This document shows positions 30,494 through 36,553 of a stretch of 64,000 nt of DNA, piece by piece. Source of the DNA: Sphaerisporangium cinnabarinum (lineage in GTDB: Bacteria; Actinomycetota; Actinomycetes; Actinomycetales; Cellulomonadaceae); NCBI GenBank assembly GCA_003052455.1, contig QAPD01000045.1, positions 1 through 64,000 of the forward strand, in the 5' to 3' direction. Positions within the stretch are counted from its first letter, which is position 1. Each line of letters starts with the position of its first letter. The notes below the pieces were generated by a model. It was not told the origin of the DNA. It saw only the letters and a program-made list of their open reading frames with translations, and searched no databases. The translations under genes and the position numbers were made by a program.

Positions 30494-32314
30494 TCAGGCG
30501 CGGCGGCGCACCAGCGCGACCGTCGCGAGCCCGCCGAGCACGAGCAGGAGCGCGAGCACCAGGGCGGACGCCGTGTCAGCACCGGTCGAGGCGAGCCCCG
30601 CGGACCCGGGGGCGGACGTCGGGCCGGCAGTCGGTCCGGGCGTCGGGGTCGGCGTCGGGGTGGGTGCCTGGTCGTAGGTGTTCGTCACGACGAGCTCCGC
30701 CGTCTCGTCCTCCGCGACCGTCACGCTCTCGGGCGTCACGACGGTCTGGGTGAGGAGCGTGGTCGCGGTGCTGCCGTCGACGGTCTCGGTGACCGTGCAG
30801 GTCGTGCCGGCGGGGATGCCGTCGAGCTCGAGGGCCACGTTGTCCCCGCCCGTCAGCCCGCCCGGGAGCTCGACCTCCTGGTCGAACGCGCCGTCCGGGT
30901 CGTCGCACGTCAGGGCGAGGGTGATCGGTCCCTGAGCGCCTGCGGCGGGACCGTCGACGGCCTTGCGCACGAGCAGGCCGCCCGTGGCGACGTCGTACGT
31001 GTTCGTCACGGTGACCGTGGCGGTGTCGCCGTTGCTGATGACGACGGACTCGGGGGCGATGTCGGTCCCCGTGACGACGACGCTGCCGTTGTCACCGTCG
31101 TCGGTCTCGGTGACCACGCAGGTCCACTCGGCGGGCAGCCCGCTCACGACCTCCGTGTGCTCGCCCGCGGCGGCTCCGGCGGGGATCGTGACCGTCCGCT
31201 CGACCGTCTCCCCACCCTCCGGCGCGGTGCACACGATGTCGAGCACCACGTCGGACTGCAGCCCGGCGCCGTCACCGGTCACGACCTTGGTGACCTCGAG
31301 GCTGCCCGCGGCGAACGGTTCGAGCAGCGCCCCGGCCCGCCGTGTCAGCTGGGCCGGCTGCGCGAGGACGAGCTTCTGCGCCTCGGTGCGGCCCGCGTTC
31401 GAGCCGTCGTAGAGGTAGACCGTGCTCTCGAGGACCGAGACCTGTCTGTCGAGCACGAAGCCGCGGGGCGGGGTGTCCCCGGCGAGGCGCGCCCAGAGGG
31501 TCGCTCCCGGCTCGACCGTGTCCCCGTCGGCGAGGAGGTTGGTGCCCTCGGGGTCGGTGAACACCTCGGCGCCGAACGACTGGATCGTCGCGGGCCCGTC
31601 GGCCTCGACGGTGAAGGGCCCGACGATGTCGCCCGTCGTCGGTGCGGCGAGGTTCTCGGGCGTCACCTCGAGCAGCGGGGGCGTGGGCTCGGGCGAGGGC
31701 CCGTTCGCGATGGCGTCCGCGACGATCTGCGCGGTGTACGGCCGCACGGGGTCGGTCGTCGAGAGCACGTACTCGTCGGAGAAGAACCAGATCGCGGCCT
31801 GGACCGCGGCGGCGCGCGCGTTCGCCGAGGGGGCGGCCGCGGGCTCACCGGTGACGGGGTAGTAGTTGTGGAGGATGTAGCCGACGTACCCGAGGTTGGG
31901 CACGTTCGCCTCGTCCCAGGTGCCGATCTCGTAGTTGACCCCGGTCCGCGTGTCGGTGAGCAGGTCGATGCAGTAGGTGAACGTCGTCTGGCCGGACACG
32001 GCGTCCGTGACCTGGATCGCCCCGGCGAAAGCCGCGTCGTTGGCGGTCGATCCGGCGGGCACGTCCGCGGGATAGCCGGCGAGCGGGTCGAACCCGGCGG
32101 GCGCGGTGAAGCCCGCGACAGCCTGTCCCGCGCCGAACCCGGTGATCGAGATCTCCGTGAAAGGGCCCCGTGGCCCGGCGCCGACCCCGTCCGGGTCCGG
32201 CTTCGCGTGCGCGGGCGGAGAGCCGAGCACGAGCAGGACGGCGAGGAGGGCGAGCGTGGAGAGCCAGGCCACCGCTCTCGCCGAACCGGTCCGGGACGTC
32301 GTCGCTGCGTGCAC
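30494..32314 (-). CDS. thioester-domain surface adhesin with LAxTG signal
   Basis: A 606-residue wall-anchored protein. In order: signal peptide to AHA (about 37), a thioester domain with Cys115 (TFTYCID) and Gln172 (AVQAAIWFFSDE) placed to form the internal thioester, a linker, two DUF5979-like/Cna-B-like repeats (TKVVTGDGAGLQSDVVLDIVC and RKAVDGPAAGAQGPITLALTC, each with one Cys later), a Pro-Thr-Gly stalk, LASTG, a hydrophobic helix and RRRA. GTG 32314 has GGGGGAACC upstream. Such proteins attach covalently to host or matrix amines in Gram-positive pathogens; the target here is unknown. A class E sortase is expected elsewhere. Confidence 0.88.
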   Translation of the reverse strand: MHAATTSRTGSARAVAWLSTLALLAVLLVLGSPPAHAKPDPDGVGAGPRGPFTEISITGFGAGQAVAGFTAPAGFDPLAGYPADVPAGSTANDAAFAGAIQVTDAVSGQTTFTYCIDLLTDTRTGVNYEIGTWDEANVPNLGYVGYILHNYYPVTGEPAAAPSANARAAAVQAAIWFFSDEYVLSTTDPVRPYTAQIVADAIANGPSPEPTPPLLEVTPENLAAPTTGDIVGPFTVEADGPATIQSFGAEVFTDPEGTNLLADGDTVEPGATLWARLAGDTPPRGFVLDRQVSVLESTVYLYDGSNAGRTEAQKLVLAQPAQLTRRAGALLEPFAAGSLEVTKVVTGDGAGLQSDVVLDIVCTAPEGGETVERTVTIPAGAAAGEHTEVVSGLPAEWTCVVTETDDGDNGSVVVTGTDIAPESVVISNGDTATVTVTNTYDVATGGLLVRKAVDGPAAGAQGPITLALTCDDPDGAFDQEVELPGGLTGGDNVALELDGIPAGTTCTVTETVDGSTATTLLTQTVVTPESVTVAEDETAELVVTNTYDQAPTPTPTPTPGPTAGPTSAPGSAGLASTGADTASALVLALLLVLGGLATVALVRRRA

Positions 32315-32476
32315 GGTTCCCCCTGAGGTGCGTCGAGACGGGCGGTTCTCAGAGTCCCACCATGACGTGACGCGCGCCACACTTTCCCGCATTCGATCGT
32401 CCGGCGTGTCGGCTGTACGTGCCGGGACGCGGGCTCCTCCCTCCAGGTGCAGGGGGACCGAACCGAGGGGGAACCC

Positions 32477-33958
32477 ATGCCCGGAAGCAAGAAGTCGGCA
32501 CCGCGGAAGCCGAGCCGGCGCGAGGTGCCGCAGACGCCCGACACCGTCGACGCGCTCTACCCGCCGCTGCCCGAACGCATCCCGCTGACGCTCGAGTCCA
32601 TCGCGGGCGACGAGCCCACGTACGCGGAGATGCTCGAGTCCATCTGCGGCGCGACCGACGACTCCCAGCCCGTCGAGCAGTACGACGGCACGCTCGGCGT
32701 CACGCGCGCGTACGTGGACGCCCACCAGAAGCAGGCCGTCCAGGTCCAGTGGAACGCGGGCCTCGGCGGCGTCTTCACCAACCCCGGCAACGTCGACGGC
32801 GTGCGCTGGGGGAGCGGCACCCTCATCGCGCCCGACCTGGTCCTCACGTGCGGCCACCTGTTCGACCAGAGCGCGGACGGCTGGGTCCTGCCCCGGCAGA
32901 ACGGGTCGATGCAGGTCATCACGCCGCAGCAGATCGCGACGAGCATGCATATCAACGTGCTGTTCCAGGTGGACCCGTCCGGTGTCCTGCGCACCGAGCA
33001 GAGCTTCCCGATCGTCGCGCTCGTCGAGTACCGGCTCGGCGGCCTCGACATGGCCGTCGTGCGCGTGGGCGGCAACCCGGGGAACACCTACGGGTTCACG
33101 GCCGTCGCCGCGGCCAACCCGGCGGTGGGCGACATGCTCGCGATCATCGGGCACCCCGCCGGGATGCCCAAGCGTGTCGAGGCCGGCCCGGCGACGGTCG
33201 TCACGACGAACCAGGTCCGCTACGACGACATCGACACGCTCGGCGGCAACTCCGGGTCCGGGATCCTCGGGCCCGCGGGCGAGCTCGTCGGCGTGCACAC
33301 GAACGGCGGCTGCAACGCGGCCGGGACCGGGTCGAACTTCGGCACGGCGATCGCGGGCATCCGCGCCGCCTCGCCGACGCTCCAGGCCCTGCCCCACGGG
33401 GCGCGCACCGCGACCGCCGACGACGGCTTCACGTCCCTCGCGCAGGACGTCATCGCGACCGTCAAGGCCGCCGACCAGGTCGGCACGCTCCTGGGCGCCG
33501 ACACCGCCCGCGCCGTCGACGTGCTGACGATCCGGCAGGCCGACTCGCACACGGTCGCCGACCAGATCGGGACCTCGTTCCTCCGGGACCAGGGCGGCAC
33601 GCCGCGCGCCCTCGACTCGGTCTTCCAGGGCGACACCCGCTTCGCCGCGGACAACCCCGTCGGCACCGGGCTCGCGGGCGACGTCGGCACCGGGCCGGGC
33701 GACACGCTCCAGGAGGGCATCTTCGACCCCGGCGACCTCGTCGACCCCGTGGTCAACCCCGCGATCGGGCGGCTCGTGCAGGCCGGTGTGCTCGCCGGGG
33801 CGCGACCCTTCGTCCAGGGCGCGGAGTCGCTCGTGGACGAGGAGGGGCCGGGCGGGGCGGTCGACGTCGTCGGCGCGCTCGTCGAGGCCGTCGCCGAGGC
33901 GCGCGCGACCCTCGAGGCCGTCGAGGCCACGCTCGCCGAGCTCCAGGCCGGGCAGTGA
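32477..33958 (+). CDS. trypsin-like serine protease without signal peptide
   Basis: A 493-residue chymotrypsin-fold protease. After an unusual N-terminal region (about 1-85, basic start, no hydrophobic segment) come GSGTLIAPDLVLTCGH (His127), LGGLDMAVVRV (Asp191) and TLGGNSGSGILG (Ser259). The last 180 residues are not protease. They contain Gly/Asp-rich stretches and an acidic helical tail rich in Glu and Thr. ATG 32477 follows GAGGGGGAACCC. With no export signal it should act in the cytoplasm or leave by another route. The ATP-grasp ligase gene follows after 40 bp, which points to a joint role. Confidence 0.85.
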   Translation: MPGSKKSAPRKPSRREVPQTPDTVDALYPPLPERIPLTLESIAGDEPTYAEMLESICGATDDSQPVEQYDGTLGVTRAYVDAHQKQAVQVQWNAGLGGVFTNPGNVDGVRWGSGTLIAPDLVLTCGHLFDQSADGWVLPRQNGSMQVITPQQIATSMHINVLFQVDPSGVLRTEQSFPIVALVEYRLGGLDMAVVRVGGNPGNTYGFTAVAAANPAVGDMLAIIGHPAGMPKRVEAGPATVVTTNQVRYDDIDTLGGNSGSGILGPAGELVGVHTNGGCNAAGTGSNFGTAIAGIRAASPTLQALPHGARTATADDGFTSLAQDVIATVKAADQVGTLLGADTARAVDVLTIRQADSHTVADQIGTSFLRDQGGTPRALDSVFQGDTRFAADNPVGTGLAGDVGTGPGDTLQEGIFDPGDLVDPVVNPAIGRLVQAGVLAGARPFVQGAESLVDEEGPGGAVDVVGALVEAVAEARATLEAVEATLAELQAGQ

Positions 33959-33998
33959 CCCGGGCGACCTCGCTCACGGACCGGACCGGGAGACCGCG

Positions 33999-35000
33999 AT
34001 GATCGGCATCGTGTCGCACGCGGACGACCTCCACACCACGGAGGTCGTCCGCCACCTGGACGCGCTCGGCGCGCCCCACGCGCTCCTCGACACGGGGCAC
34101 GCGCCCCGCGACGTGGCGCTCACCTCGACGCAGGACGCCGCGGGGTGGCGCGCCGACTGGGTCGACACGAGCGCCGAGGGCGTGAGCGCGGTGGACACCA
34201 CCACGCTGCGCGCCGTGTGGTGGCGCCGCCCGCAGCCGTTCGCGCTGCACGACGACCTGCGCTCCGCCCAGGACCGCGGCTTCGCCCACGGGGAGGTGGC
34301 CGCGGCGGTGTCCGGGCTGTGGTCGTGCCTGCCCGCCACGTGGGTCAACGACCCGGACCGCGACGAGGCCGGGTCCCGCAAGATGTGGCAGCTCCAGGTC
34401 GCCGCGCGCCTGGGGCTGCGCGTGCCGCGCACGTGCATGACGAACGACCCGGCCCGCGCCCGGGAGTTCCTGCACCGGGAACCGGGGCGCGTGATCTTCA
34501 AGCCGTTCAGCGGCACGCCCGCGACGTGGCGCGAGACCCGCCCCGTGCGGGAGGCGGACCTCGCGCTCATCGAGAGCGTGCGCTACGCGCCGGTCATCTT
34601 CCAGGAGGCCGTCACGGGGTCGGACGTGCGCGTGACGATCGTCGGCACGGAGCTGTTCGCGGCCGAGCTGCGCACCGAGGAGTCGGCGTACGCGTACGAC
34701 TTCCGCGTCGACACCCACCACTGCCCGACGTCGGTGCACGACCTTCCCGAGCACGTCGCCACCGCGCTCCTGCGGCTCATGGAGGTGCTCGGCCTCTGGT
34801 ACGGGGCGGTCGACCTGCGCCGCACGCCCGAGGGCGACTACGTGTTCCTGGAGATCAACCCGGCCGGGCAGTGGCTCTTCGTCGAGTACGCGACCGGGCA
34901 GCCGATCGCCGCGGCGCTCGCGGCGCTGCTCGCGCGTCTCGACCGCGAGGAGGCCCCGGGCGCGACGCGGCGGCGCACCTGGCGCGGCAACGCGGACTGA
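33999..35000 (+). CDS. ATP-grasp ligase of the MvdD/graspetide type
   Basis: A 333-residue ATP-grasp enzyme that should form ester or amide bonds between side chains of a peptide or protein. The MvdD-like pre-grasp domain (IGIVSHADDLHTTEVVRHLDALG, AVWWRRPQPF, TWVNDPDRDEAGSRKMWQLQVAARLGLRVPRTCMTNDP) precedes the ATP-grasp fold: VIFKPFSG with the ATP Lys, VIFQEAVTGSDVRVTIVG, and FLEINPAGQWLFVE with the metal-binding Glu/Asn. No small precursor gene is visible. The only neighbour in the operon is the protease, whose C-terminal tail is a possible substrate. A typical graspetide methyltransferase is absent. Confidence 0.82.
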   Translation: MIGIVSHADDLHTTEVVRHLDALGAPHALLDTGHAPRDVALTSTQDAAGWRADWVDTSAEGVSAVDTTTLRAVWWRRPQPFALHDDLRSAQDRGFAHGEVAAAVSGLWSCLPATWVNDPDRDEAGSRKMWQLQVAARLGLRVPRTCMTNDPARAREFLHREPGRVIFKPFSGTPATWRETRPVREADLALIESVRYAPVIFQEAVTGSDVRVTIVGTELFAAELRTEESAYAYDFRVDTHHCPTSVHDLPEHVATALLRLMEVLGLWYGAVDLRRTPEGDYVFLEINPAGQWLFVEYATGQPIAAALAALLARLDREEAPGATRRRTWRGNAD

Positions 35001-35004
35001 GCGT

Positions 35005-35051
35005 GGGTCCGGATCCGGGTCCGGGTCCGGGTGCGGATGCGGATGCGGGCC
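35005..35051. repeat. hexanucleotide repeats between convergent genes
   Basis: GGGTCC and GGATGC units repeat about seven times between the ATP-grasp gene and the GT2 gene. This is simple sequence; no gene is seen in it. Confidence 0.6.
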
Positions 35052-35069
35052 GGGCAGCGCCGGTGCGCG

Positions 35070-35807
35070 TCAGCGCCAGCGGTCGCGCCACCGCTCCCAC
35101 GGTGGCGCGACCGTCCAGTTGAGGCGCAGCGTGCGCCACGCGCGGTCCATGCGGCGACGGCGCTGGCGTCGCCCGCGCAGCGAGCGCGCCGACACCCCGA
35201 CGCGCCACGACCGGTCGAGCACCGTGCGTCGGCCCGGACCGAGGCGGAACGACAGGTCGAGGTCGTCGTGCACCTCGGGGTCGTCGCGCACGACGGCGTC
35301 GCGCACGGCGGTCCACGCCGAGCGGCGCAGGGCCATGCACGAACCCCAGAGCGCGGTGTGGCCGAGCGCGAGGTGGCACAGCACGTAGTACGCGCCGAGA
35401 TAGACGATCGCGACGGCGGCGCGCGCGCCGCGCGGCAGGTCGTCGAACGTGCCGGTGCCGGTCATCGCGTCGAGGGTCGGGTCGGCGGCCATGCGGTCCA
35501 CGACGCGCTGCACCCACCCCGGGTCGGGGAGCGAGTCGGCGTCGAGCCGCGCGATGACGTCGCCGCGCGCGGCGTCGTACCCGGTCGCGGCGGCGGCGGG
35601 GATGCCGACGCGGTCCTCGCGCACGACGACGGCACCCCAGCGCCGCGCGACGAGCGCCGAGTCGTCGCGGGACGCGTTGTCGACGACCACGACCTCGAGC
35701 GGCGCGACGGTCTGCTGCGCGATGCGCGCCAGGCAGCGATCGAGGGCGGCGGCGTCGTCGCGGACGGGGACGACGACCGACACGGTCGGGGCGGTCCGGC
35801 GCGTCAC
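35070..35807 (-). CDS. family 2 glycosyltransferase
   Basis: A GT-A-fold glycosyltransferase of 245 residues. PTVSVVVPVRDDAAALDRCLARI opens the domain, VVVDNASRDDS holds the nucleotide-sugar Asp, ARLDADSLPDPGW is the DxD-type motif, and LWGSCMALRRSAW and VHDDLDLSFRL (acceptor and catalytic Asp region) follow. A central hydrophobic stretch and a very basic C-terminus suggest membrane association. The GTG start overlaps the upstream membrane-protein stop by 4 bp. Donor and acceptor are unknown. Confidence 0.88.
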   Translation of the reverse strand: MTRRTAPTVSVVVPVRDDAAALDRCLARIAQQTVAPLEVVVVDNASRDDSALVARRWGAVVVREDRVGIPAAAATGYDAARGDVIARLDADSLPDPGWVQRVVDRMAADPTLDAMTGTGTFDDLPRGARAAVAIVYLGAYYVLCHLALGHTALWGSCMALRRSAWTAVRDAVVRDDPEVHDDLDLSFRLGPGRRTVLDRSWRVGVSARSLRGRRQRRRRMDRAWRTLRLNWTVAPPWERWRDRWR

Positions 35808-36409
35808 GGTCGGACCTCGCGGACCGCGGTGCCGCGCGCGAGGAGGACCCCGGCGACGGCGGAGCCGAGCAGCCCGGTCGCGAGGTCGGTGACCGTGTCG
35901 CCGTAGCCGACGCCGATCCGGTCGTCGAGGAACGTGTGCCCGGCCCACTCGCCGAGCTCCCACAGGATCGCGAGGACCGCCCCGAGACCCGTGGTCACCA
36001 CGACGACGCCCGTGCGCCACGGCCGGTCGTCGGCGTGCGGGGCGGGCAGCGCCCTGACCCGGACGAGCGTCACCGTCGCGAGCGCCGCGATGAGCCCGGT
36101 GCACACGGCGTGCACCGGCAGGTCGAGCCACGGCACCGCGCGGTACCACTCGAGCTGGGCGGCCCAGGCGGAGGCGAGCAGCGCAGCCCCGTAGCCGACG
36201 TCGAGCACGCCGGTCACCCCGAGGGCGCGCGGCACCATCGTCCCGCCGAGCACGAGCAGGAACAGCGCGACGCCGACGCCGTCGAGCGCCGCGCCGGCCG
36301 CGACGACGCTGAGCGCGGCCGCGGCCCGGACCGCGTCGCCCGCGACGAGCGCGCCGCGTCCCGGGGCGGCGAGGGAGGGGCCCGCCGTGGGGGCGGGGGT
36401 GGCGGGCAT
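35804..36409 (-). CDS. DUF2238-like membrane protein
   Basis: A 201-residue polytopic protein with about six hydrophobic segments. The segment WLDLPVHAVCTGLIAALATV and the pair ILWELGEWAGHTFLDD and GYGDTVTDLATGLLGSAVAGVLLA resemble DUF2238/YjdF proteins, which carry acidic residues in membrane helices. ATG 36409 has AGGAG 7 nt upstream; the longer frame has none. It is translationally coupled to the GT2 gene (GTGA). Confidence 0.75.
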   Translation of the reverse strand: MPATPAPTAGPSLAAPGRGALVAGDAVRAAAALSVVAAGAALDGVGVALFLLVLGGTMVPRALGVTGVLDVGYGAALLASAWAAQLEWYRAVPWLDLPVHAVCTGLIAALATVTLVRVRALPAPHADDRPWRTGVVVVTTGLGAVLAILWELGEWAGHTFLDDRIGVGYGDTVTDLATGLLGSAVAGVLLARGTAVREVRP

Positions 36410-36431
36410 GCGGGGCTCCTGGGAGGGTGGT

Positions 36432-36469
36432 GCGGCGGCGGGGATCACAGCCTCACACCCCGCCGCCGC
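36432..36469. repeat. 12-bp inverted repeat before the DUF2238-like gene
   Basis: GCGGCGGCGGGG and its exact complement are separated by 14 bases. It may be a leader structure or a second terminator for the upstream VOC gene. Confidence 0.45.
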
Positions 36470-36553
36470 GTTCGCACGCCCGTCCGCCGGGAGCGCTCGT
36501 CGCGCCTCCCGAGGCGCCCGGGGGTCGGGTCGGTGGTCACGTGACCCAGCCTC

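Follow-up and report, generated by a model that had tools for sequence, protein, structure and literature searches.

The protease–ligase pair and its repeat tail

We analysed a stretch of 64,000 nucleotides from Sphaerisporangium cinnabarinum (contig QAPD01000045.1, positions 1 to 64,000; the window), in which a gene for a protease with a long repetitive tail (P0001) is followed by a gene for an ATP-grasp ligase (P0002) that starts 40 bp beyond it on the same strand (Table 1). P0001 is arranged as an N-terminal segment without a signal peptide, a V8-like serine protease domain, a tail of T-x4-D repeats and a C-terminal segment, the predicted follower. A sequence-only reading of this DNA had already picked out the pair, the intact His-Asp-Ser triad, the missing signal peptide and the MvdD-like ligase, and had suggested that the tail is the substrate of the ligase. 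The first four points were borne out, both open reading frames having Pfam matches, and the last gained strong comparative support from recurring tails, the PF motif and the ligase clade. The pair, its repeats, the conserved PF motif, the tails on unrelated enzymes and the ligase clade are established at the sequence level.

Table 1. Coordinates of the protease–ligase locus within the window and the basis of each assignment
Feature	Length or residues	Position	Strand	Basis
Protease-tail gene P0001	493 aa	32477..33958	+	Pfam, homologue search, alignment, structure model
Serine protease domain of P0001	60-306	32654..33394	+	Pfam, alignment, structure model and comparison
Predicted cross-linking region of P0001, ten T-x4-D units	311-402	33407..33682	+	Shuffle test, spacing statistics over homologous tails, predicted disorder
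TLQEG of P0001, with E413 as the sole Glu between 303 and 442	410-414	33704..33718	+	Sequence
Predicted follower of P0001, RPFVQ and C-terminal helix 461-492	443-493	33803..33955	+	PF motif across enzyme-tail loci; helix in P0001 model
MvdC/MvdD-type ATP-grasp ligase P0002	333 aa	33999..35000	+	Pfam, NCBIfam, phmmer, structure model, Foldseek

P0001 matches Pfam Trypsin_2 (expect value, E, 9.3e-15), and its structure model, built with 17 aligned sequences, is confident across most of the protease domain, with a predicted local distance difference test score (pLDDT) of 60 for the whole model. The closest structure by VIA-align is V8 protease (Z 23.0, root-mean-square deviation 2.5, 201 residues), followed by Esp and glutamyl endopeptidase; P0001 thus has the chymotrypsin-like fold and the His-Asp-Ser triad of the V8-like (S1) glutamyl endopeptidases. 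The triad, H127/D191/S259, is invariant in the 17 aligned sequences, the window's included. His274 is located within a GVHTNGG motif like that of glutamyl endopeptidases, is conserved among the aligned relatives and is, we presume, the determinant of Glu specificity; P0001 is accordingly predicted to be a V8-like enzyme with Glu-specific cleavage. V8 protease and the Bacillus intermedius glutamyl endopeptidase have the protease fold and the GVH-type pocket motif in common with P0001, but both are secreted and are not known to carry a tail of the P0001 type. No signal peptide was seen in P0001 by hydrophobicity, the best 15-residue stretch in the first 60 residues scoring 0.27 on the Kyte-Doolittle scale versus 2.56 in the neighbouring gene. 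The window genome holds a single match to P0001 at E 0.001 or better, and a search for unlinked copies of the protease domain in 394 genomes of the class turned up, besides the window's own copy, a single weak match (29% identity, E 2.6e-9), too little for a tail-free control set.

The tail spans residues 303-493. Its length of about 190 residues is close to the 180 or so of the sequence-only reading, whose description of the tail as rich in Thr and Glu did not hold: residues 303-442 contain 14 Thr, 17 Asp and a single Glu (E413), and Glu becomes frequent only over the final 50 residues of the protein. Ten T-x4-D units start at residues 311, 319, 328, 337, 343, 351, 366, 375, 387 and 397, whereas 20,000 shuffles of residues 303-442 averaged 1.64 such units and never exceeded 7. 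The repeats are followed by a linker containing Pro and Asn, then by RPFVQ (443-447) and a helix; residues 309-464 are modelled as disordered, with a pLDDT of about 27 over most of this region. From its sequence, TLQEG with E413 is a possible site of self-cleavage or of an extra ring.

P0002 belongs to the MvdC/MvdD superfamily of ATP-grasp ligases, matching Pfam ATPgraspMvdD (PF21068) at E 9.4e-8, above the cut-off, and its phmmer matches are AMdnB, MdnB, PruB, MdnC, CdnC and PsnB. Its model (pLDDT 92.8) is closest in Foldseek to MdnC in the MdnC-MdnA structure 5ig9 (E 3.3e-28, template modelling score 0.82 on the query), and CdnC, PruB, AMdnB and PsnB also rank ahead of RimK. Among 41 aligned ligases, K168 is invariant and D272, E285 and N287 are more than 90% conserved; from the ATP-grasp fold, we take these four residues to bind ATP and metal. 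Near-identical loci in named genomes place the source in the genus Cellulosimicrobium; P0002 is 98% identical to the ligase of C. funkei.

Tailed enzymes beside related ligases

Within 150 genomes of the family, protease homologues were found in 12, with a ligase homologue directly downstream in 11; the twelfth locus (L012) stops at the contig edge. Ligase homologues were found in 20 of the 150, beside a V8-like enzyme in 11, an astacin in six, an M6 peptidase in two and a small protein containing the stretch PFAFSTRD in one (L096). The six astacins (L090-L095; assigned by a Pfam run on L162, the stretch around L093) carry their own repeat tail and PF motif. Ligases standing without the protease would have counted against the sequence-only reading. 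The pair is kept at all 11 of the nearest loci where the contig reaches, but at distant loci the ligase mostly adjoins another tailed enzyme, at a few a repeat protein without a known enzyme domain, and at some neither.

A scan of named genomes yielded 62 ligase loci, at 47 of which the gene directly upstream ends in a repeat/PF tail. Their products are 29 S1 proteases, 13 M12A astacins, three M43 metalloproteases, one S8 subtilase and one tyrosinase, as assigned by Pfam for 21 and by catalytic motifs and similarity for the remainder, and they come from Actinomycetota, Pseudomonadota, Chloroflexota, Bacteroidota, Acidobacteriota and the archaeon Halorubrum. Included among the 47 are a tail only (L044) and a gene with only the end of an M43 domain (L077). 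In L033 (4840-6936), the S1 protease with its tail and the ligase share one open frame of 698 residues, either a natural fusion or an assembly error. The clearest non-protease member is a tyrosinase from Chloroflexia (L036:4036-5484, Pfam E 3.1e-41), with a tail of PTLKFRDD-type repeats and PFVLSTPHH, which adjoins a ligase of the clade described below. A plasmid of Burkholderia stagnalis encodes a ligase 43% identical to P0002, whose start overlaps the stop of an upstream gene for an M43 metalloprotease (Pfam E 7.6e-16); this enzyme is unrelated to the V8 fold and carries a T-x4-D tail and an APFV motif. Upstream of the L137 ligase, the flank of which is short, the longer stretch L161 (1803-3533) reveals an enzyme of M43 type by its motifs HEIGHWLNLRH and MNYMDY, followed by a long tail of PKEFPKDGP-type repeats, with Lys and Glu/Asp in place of Thr/Asp, and PFVLATP. 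Viral contigs gave no ligase match in a single-sequence scan, the reach of which is limited to close relatives.

The spacing of the repeats is fixed within each enzyme group. Thr is followed by Asp or Glu at exactly +5 in 199 cases versus 36.5 after shuffling in the S1 tails (z 31; 17 non-redundant tails of 26), in 26 versus 4.8 in four M43 tails, and in nine versus 1.3 in the single S8 tail. The 12 astacin tails favour +3 (86 versus 19.7), and the L053 astacin tail carries K-x3-D repeats. In the tyrosinase tail, Thr to Asp/Glu pairs occur at +5 and +6 (7 and 9 versus 2.1 and 1.9), as do Lys to Asp/Glu pairs at +3 and +4. These statistics cover non-redundant tails with a recognisable tail start, leaving aside near-identical tails and seven PF-bearing rows (L044, L049, L052, L059, L068, L015 and L016). 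A PF[V/A/I/S] motif lies within the last 170 residues of 47 of the 48 enzyme-tail proteins, that is, those of the 47 scan loci and Burkholderia; the remaining one, L033, was not extracted. Single repeats drift, but neither the spacing within a group nor the PF motif is lost between unrelated enzymes. To judge from these sequences, the layout of the tail stays constant even where the enzyme domain, the acceptor or the spacing differs.

In a tree of 59 ligases with a weakly placed midpoint root, 45 form one clade with support 98/98. Thirty-nine of the 45 were labelled enzyme-tail when the tree was built and L137 is the fortieth; three others adjoin repeat-only proteins and two fall in neither class. 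An earlier quick tree had 78 rows, 19 of which were dropped here as long-branched or redundant; the quick tree itself was made without 17 near-copies or partial rows and without 27 that the extraction pattern did not catch (including L091-L095, L097, L098 and, from outside the clade, several ligases with small precursors). Because the enzyme classes mostly form sub-groups in the ligase trees, exchanges of enzyme domains seem to have been few, not constant. The three repeat-only proteins of the scan (L059:2353-3480, L052:5296-5940 and L068:5357-5992) have no Pfam match and a shared-looking small N-terminal region. In L059 and L052, repeats flank the PF motif on both sides, and one recognition site may therefore serve cores on either side.

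A separate precursor was sought in two ways. Among 37 stop-to-stop segments of 20-150 residues in window positions 31000-36500, no small precursor was recognised, in agreement with the sequence-only reading; one segment with a PF motif and acceptor/donor pairs runs antisense to the neighbouring gene. Nor was a precursor recognised adjoining the ligases of the enzyme-tail clade: when 66 loci were scanned for other open reading frames of at least 80 residues with the tail signature, the only matches were the protease-ligase frame of L033 itself and one long frame in L072. Small precursors were seen beside ligases outside the clade, in 10 of 13 Bacteroidota records (L143-L155) at six distinct places; their PFFA-FLE motif lies close to the start, ahead of the core. 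In six Nocardia loci (L066, L069, L072, L074, L075 and L076), a small protein is encoded directly upstream of the ligase and ends in CCQTRS--GSDDG-ACDSLD in five of the six, with a variant in L066; it is a candidate precursor of another type.

Predicted cross-linking of the tail

We propose that the protease itself is the precursor and that the ligase cross-links the tail of its own partner, a reading to which we assign a probability of about three in four on the basis of the comparisons above. P0002 would dock on the C-terminal follower of P0001, comprising RPFVQ and the helix, and would use ATP to activate the Asp side chains within the repeats. Each Asp would then be joined to the Thr five residues earlier; the result would be a rigid tail with as many as ten ester rings of six residues each, from which the enzyme domain is not released. 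That the P0001 tail is modified in some way is very likely; the RPFVQ/helix segment can be assigned as the docking site with only slightly less confidence, and Thr(i)-Asp(i+5) esters are the probable form of the bonds.

Several observations weigh against this proposal. P0002 scores 238, 184 and 165 bits with its three closest NCBIfam graspetide-ligase models (TIGR04187, TIGR04185 and TIGR04184), below their curated cut-offs of 350, 425 and 475. Fifteen of the 62 scan loci have no enzyme-tail gene upstream: three encode repeat proteins without a Pfam domain (L052, L059 and L068), one a small PF protein (L061) and six the conserved small protein of Nocardia, nothing was recognised in L067, L070, L071 and L073, and the upstream DNA of L057 lies outside the sample. 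Two of the 45 clade rows, L061 and L070, have no recognisable repeat protein alongside. The quick tree of 78 rows places the enzyme-tail ligases in a group of 41 with a weaker support of 84, the repeat-only trio lying just outside. The Halorubrum S1 tail is weak in the T-D spacing (3 versus 1.4 shuffled), its Lys to Asp/Glu pairs at +4 and +5 numbering 6 and 7 versus 1.6 and 1.7. Acceptor, donor and spacing vary by enzyme group (T-x4-D, T-x2-E, K-x3-D, and Lys/Glu in L137), a variety that no single rule covers, and single T-x4-D rings of the P0001 form were not found described in the literature.

As to what a cross-linked tail would do, our tentative first choice, a guess placed ahead of an inhibitor or a released peptide, is a protease-proof stalk or anchor carrying the enzyme. 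More broadly and a little less surely, the repeats and the C-terminal follower could form a portable module, a general means of equipping folded enzymes with a ring-stitched tail. Such a module would have passed between proteases of four families and a tyrosinase inside the ligase clade, and also to M6 peptidases whose neighbouring ligase is of a second, more distant type, and its hosts would include both bacteria and an archaeon; its product would be a modified enzyme that keeps its tail and not a peptide natural product.

The strongest competing explanation, though an unlikely one in our estimate, is that the modified tail is a built-in inhibitor, the enzyme being latent until the tail is removed. 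The partners of the tails are nearly all proteases, and some astacins retain the pro-segment motif FEGDI, which we take to be an aspartate switch. As of 2022, all characterised graspetides were protease inhibitors (PMC8939145). Against an inhibitor stands the T-x4-D consensus itself, which S1, M43 and S8 enzymes share and the tyrosinase approaches (+5, +6), and which is not fitted to each active site.

It is less probable still that the protease cuts out the modified tail as a free cyclic peptide. E413 would serve such release, as it lies after the core and before the follower of an enzyme that is V8-like and predicted to be Glu-specific, but no cleavage site stands out where the tail begins, though no systematic search for one was made, some S1 relatives (such as L021-L025, L034, L037 and L038) have no Glu at the E413 position, and the tyrosinase and repeat-only members would require another protease. 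A more limited self-trimming is conceivable, since the ring region contains no Glu and E413 comes just after it, so that an enzyme with the predicted Glu specificity could trim its own follower; this is only an idea, because several S1 relatives lack that Glu and the M43 tails are as Glu-poor (0.7%). In view of the Glu-poor M43 tails, the scarcity of Glu is by itself no argument for protection from a Glu-specific protease, and we rejected it as proof of self-protection.

We consider it improbable that the protease is instead a processing enzyme and that the true precursor is some other protein with its gene elsewhere. For ATP-grasp branches 7 and 8, which accompany peptidases "of several unrelated families", Makarova et al. 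(2022) were unable to predict a precursor and suggested an origin from other proteins or regions (PMC8939145); leader-cutting proteases are also known in clusters for ribosomally synthesized and post-translationally modified peptides (RiPPs) (PMC10885120). A processing role leaves unexplained why the peptidases themselves bear fixed-spacing Thr/Asp repeats and a PF motif, and why a tyrosinase, which cuts no peptides, bears such a tail. An intermolecular bond between the tail and another protein or copy is slightly more doubtful: the graspetide ligase ThfB can cross-link assembled protein chains (PMC12291112), but the close, fixed spacing of acceptor and donor in each unit suits local rings. 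Least probable by our estimate is a RimK-like addition of amino acids to the tail without rings. In its favour, RimK-family models match P0002, below their cut-offs; against it, the best fold and sequence matches of P0002 are the ring-forming MdnC, CdnC and PsnB and the related PruB, with RimK structures ranking lower, and paired donor/acceptor spacing would have no role.

Relation to known systems and neighbouring genes

The proposed system resembles the graspetides microviridin, plesiocin, chryseoviridin and fuscimiditide in having an MvdC/MvdD-type ligase beside the predicted substrate, a core with acceptors (Thr, Ser or Lys) and donors (Asp or Glu) at regular spacing, and a PF-type recognition motif. 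It differs in the substrate: instead of a small peptide with the PF motif in an N-terminal leader before the core, we find the tail of a 493-residue enzyme with the PF motif after the core. Multicore graspetide substrates are known, such as AMdnA (PMC5934393). For fuscimiditide, RPFG is the recognition motif, and an engineered ThfA with its leader at the C-terminus is still modified by ThfB (PMC13003496). In both that construct and P0001 the core precedes an RPF-containing segment, engineered there and natural here, and by analogy the enzyme-tail proteins look like a natural version of the design. Natural followers exist in bottromycin, another RiPP (PMC10885120). If the proposal is correct, it would supply a natural graspetide recognition segment after the core, otherwise found only by engineering in the graspetide literature searched, and would carry side-chain cross-linking beyond small peptides, to the tails of folded enzymes.

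Two published descriptions come close, as judged from their wording. Graspetide group 32 of Carter et al. (2026) has diverse protease families alongside, as here, which were read as maturation or resistance factors (PMC13097080). The same work showed single K-x3-D lactam repeats in corallotide, which has a large precursor; these simple rings recall the K-x3-D repeats of the L053 astacin tail, but no enzyme domain is mentioned on the precursor, and corallotide uses Lys and an oxygenase instead of Thr (PMC13097080). Branches 7 and 8, the other description, comprise ligases tied to unrelated peptidase families without a precursor gene, as at the loci studied here (PMC8939145). They differ in the proposed precursor, which is there cut from other proteins or encoded elsewhere and here predicted to be the peptidase tail; on the sequence evidence, the missing precursor of both branches would most simply be that tail. 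The proposal offers a testable answer to a published puzzle, and repeat tails could serve as a search signal for more such enzymes and as a tool for stapling tails onto proteins. In the open-licence literature, with subscription papers mostly outside the search, we did not find peptidase tails named as graspetide substrates.

As in branch 7, unrelated peptidase families stand beside our ligases without a small precursor. The published hallmark of branch 7 is a YscW-like gene, present in many loci, and that of branch 8 a truncated ATP-grasp gene (PMC8939145). A weak YscW-like match (E 0.0039, below the Pfam cut-off) lies in the same-genus astacin-tail locus L162, and none was recognised in the window. 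The branch 8 arrangement is resembled by the two M6 loci of the family (L098/L156, at L156:1981-5552, and L097/L157), in which an M6 peptidase with a Lys/Glu repeat tail, a truncated-looking ATP-grasp gene and a full one occur in series; the M6 assignment (Pfam E 8.8e-25) was run on L156 only, and the truncated gene, without a Pfam match, was judged by eye. At L158:6146-6499, in reverse orientation beside truncated-looking and full ATP-grasp genes, a small protein with EPFIGGED near its start and FEKPEIKE-type repeats is a candidate precursor for a branch-8-like ligase.

Against a library of defence systems, the protease domain matches only RT-Protease_XI, weakly (E 2e-4 and 1.9e-3), and the ligase has no match. 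The divergent gene upstream of P0001 (window 30494-32310, minus strand, start approximate) encodes a secreted-type surface protein with what we take to be a thioester-domain-like segment and a C-terminal sorting-like end. A link to this possible adhesin was considered and set aside: the gene is unlikely to be part of the system, because among the loci compared, many of them with short flanks, its matches are confined to the window's own. Clustering of neighbouring genes gave mostly shadow frames and served only to point to the neighbours in Marivita-type loci, where the S1-tail/ligase pair is preceded by an animal haem peroxidase and by an LCAT-type hydrolase that is joined to a second Trypsin_2 domain (L038:3-4251).

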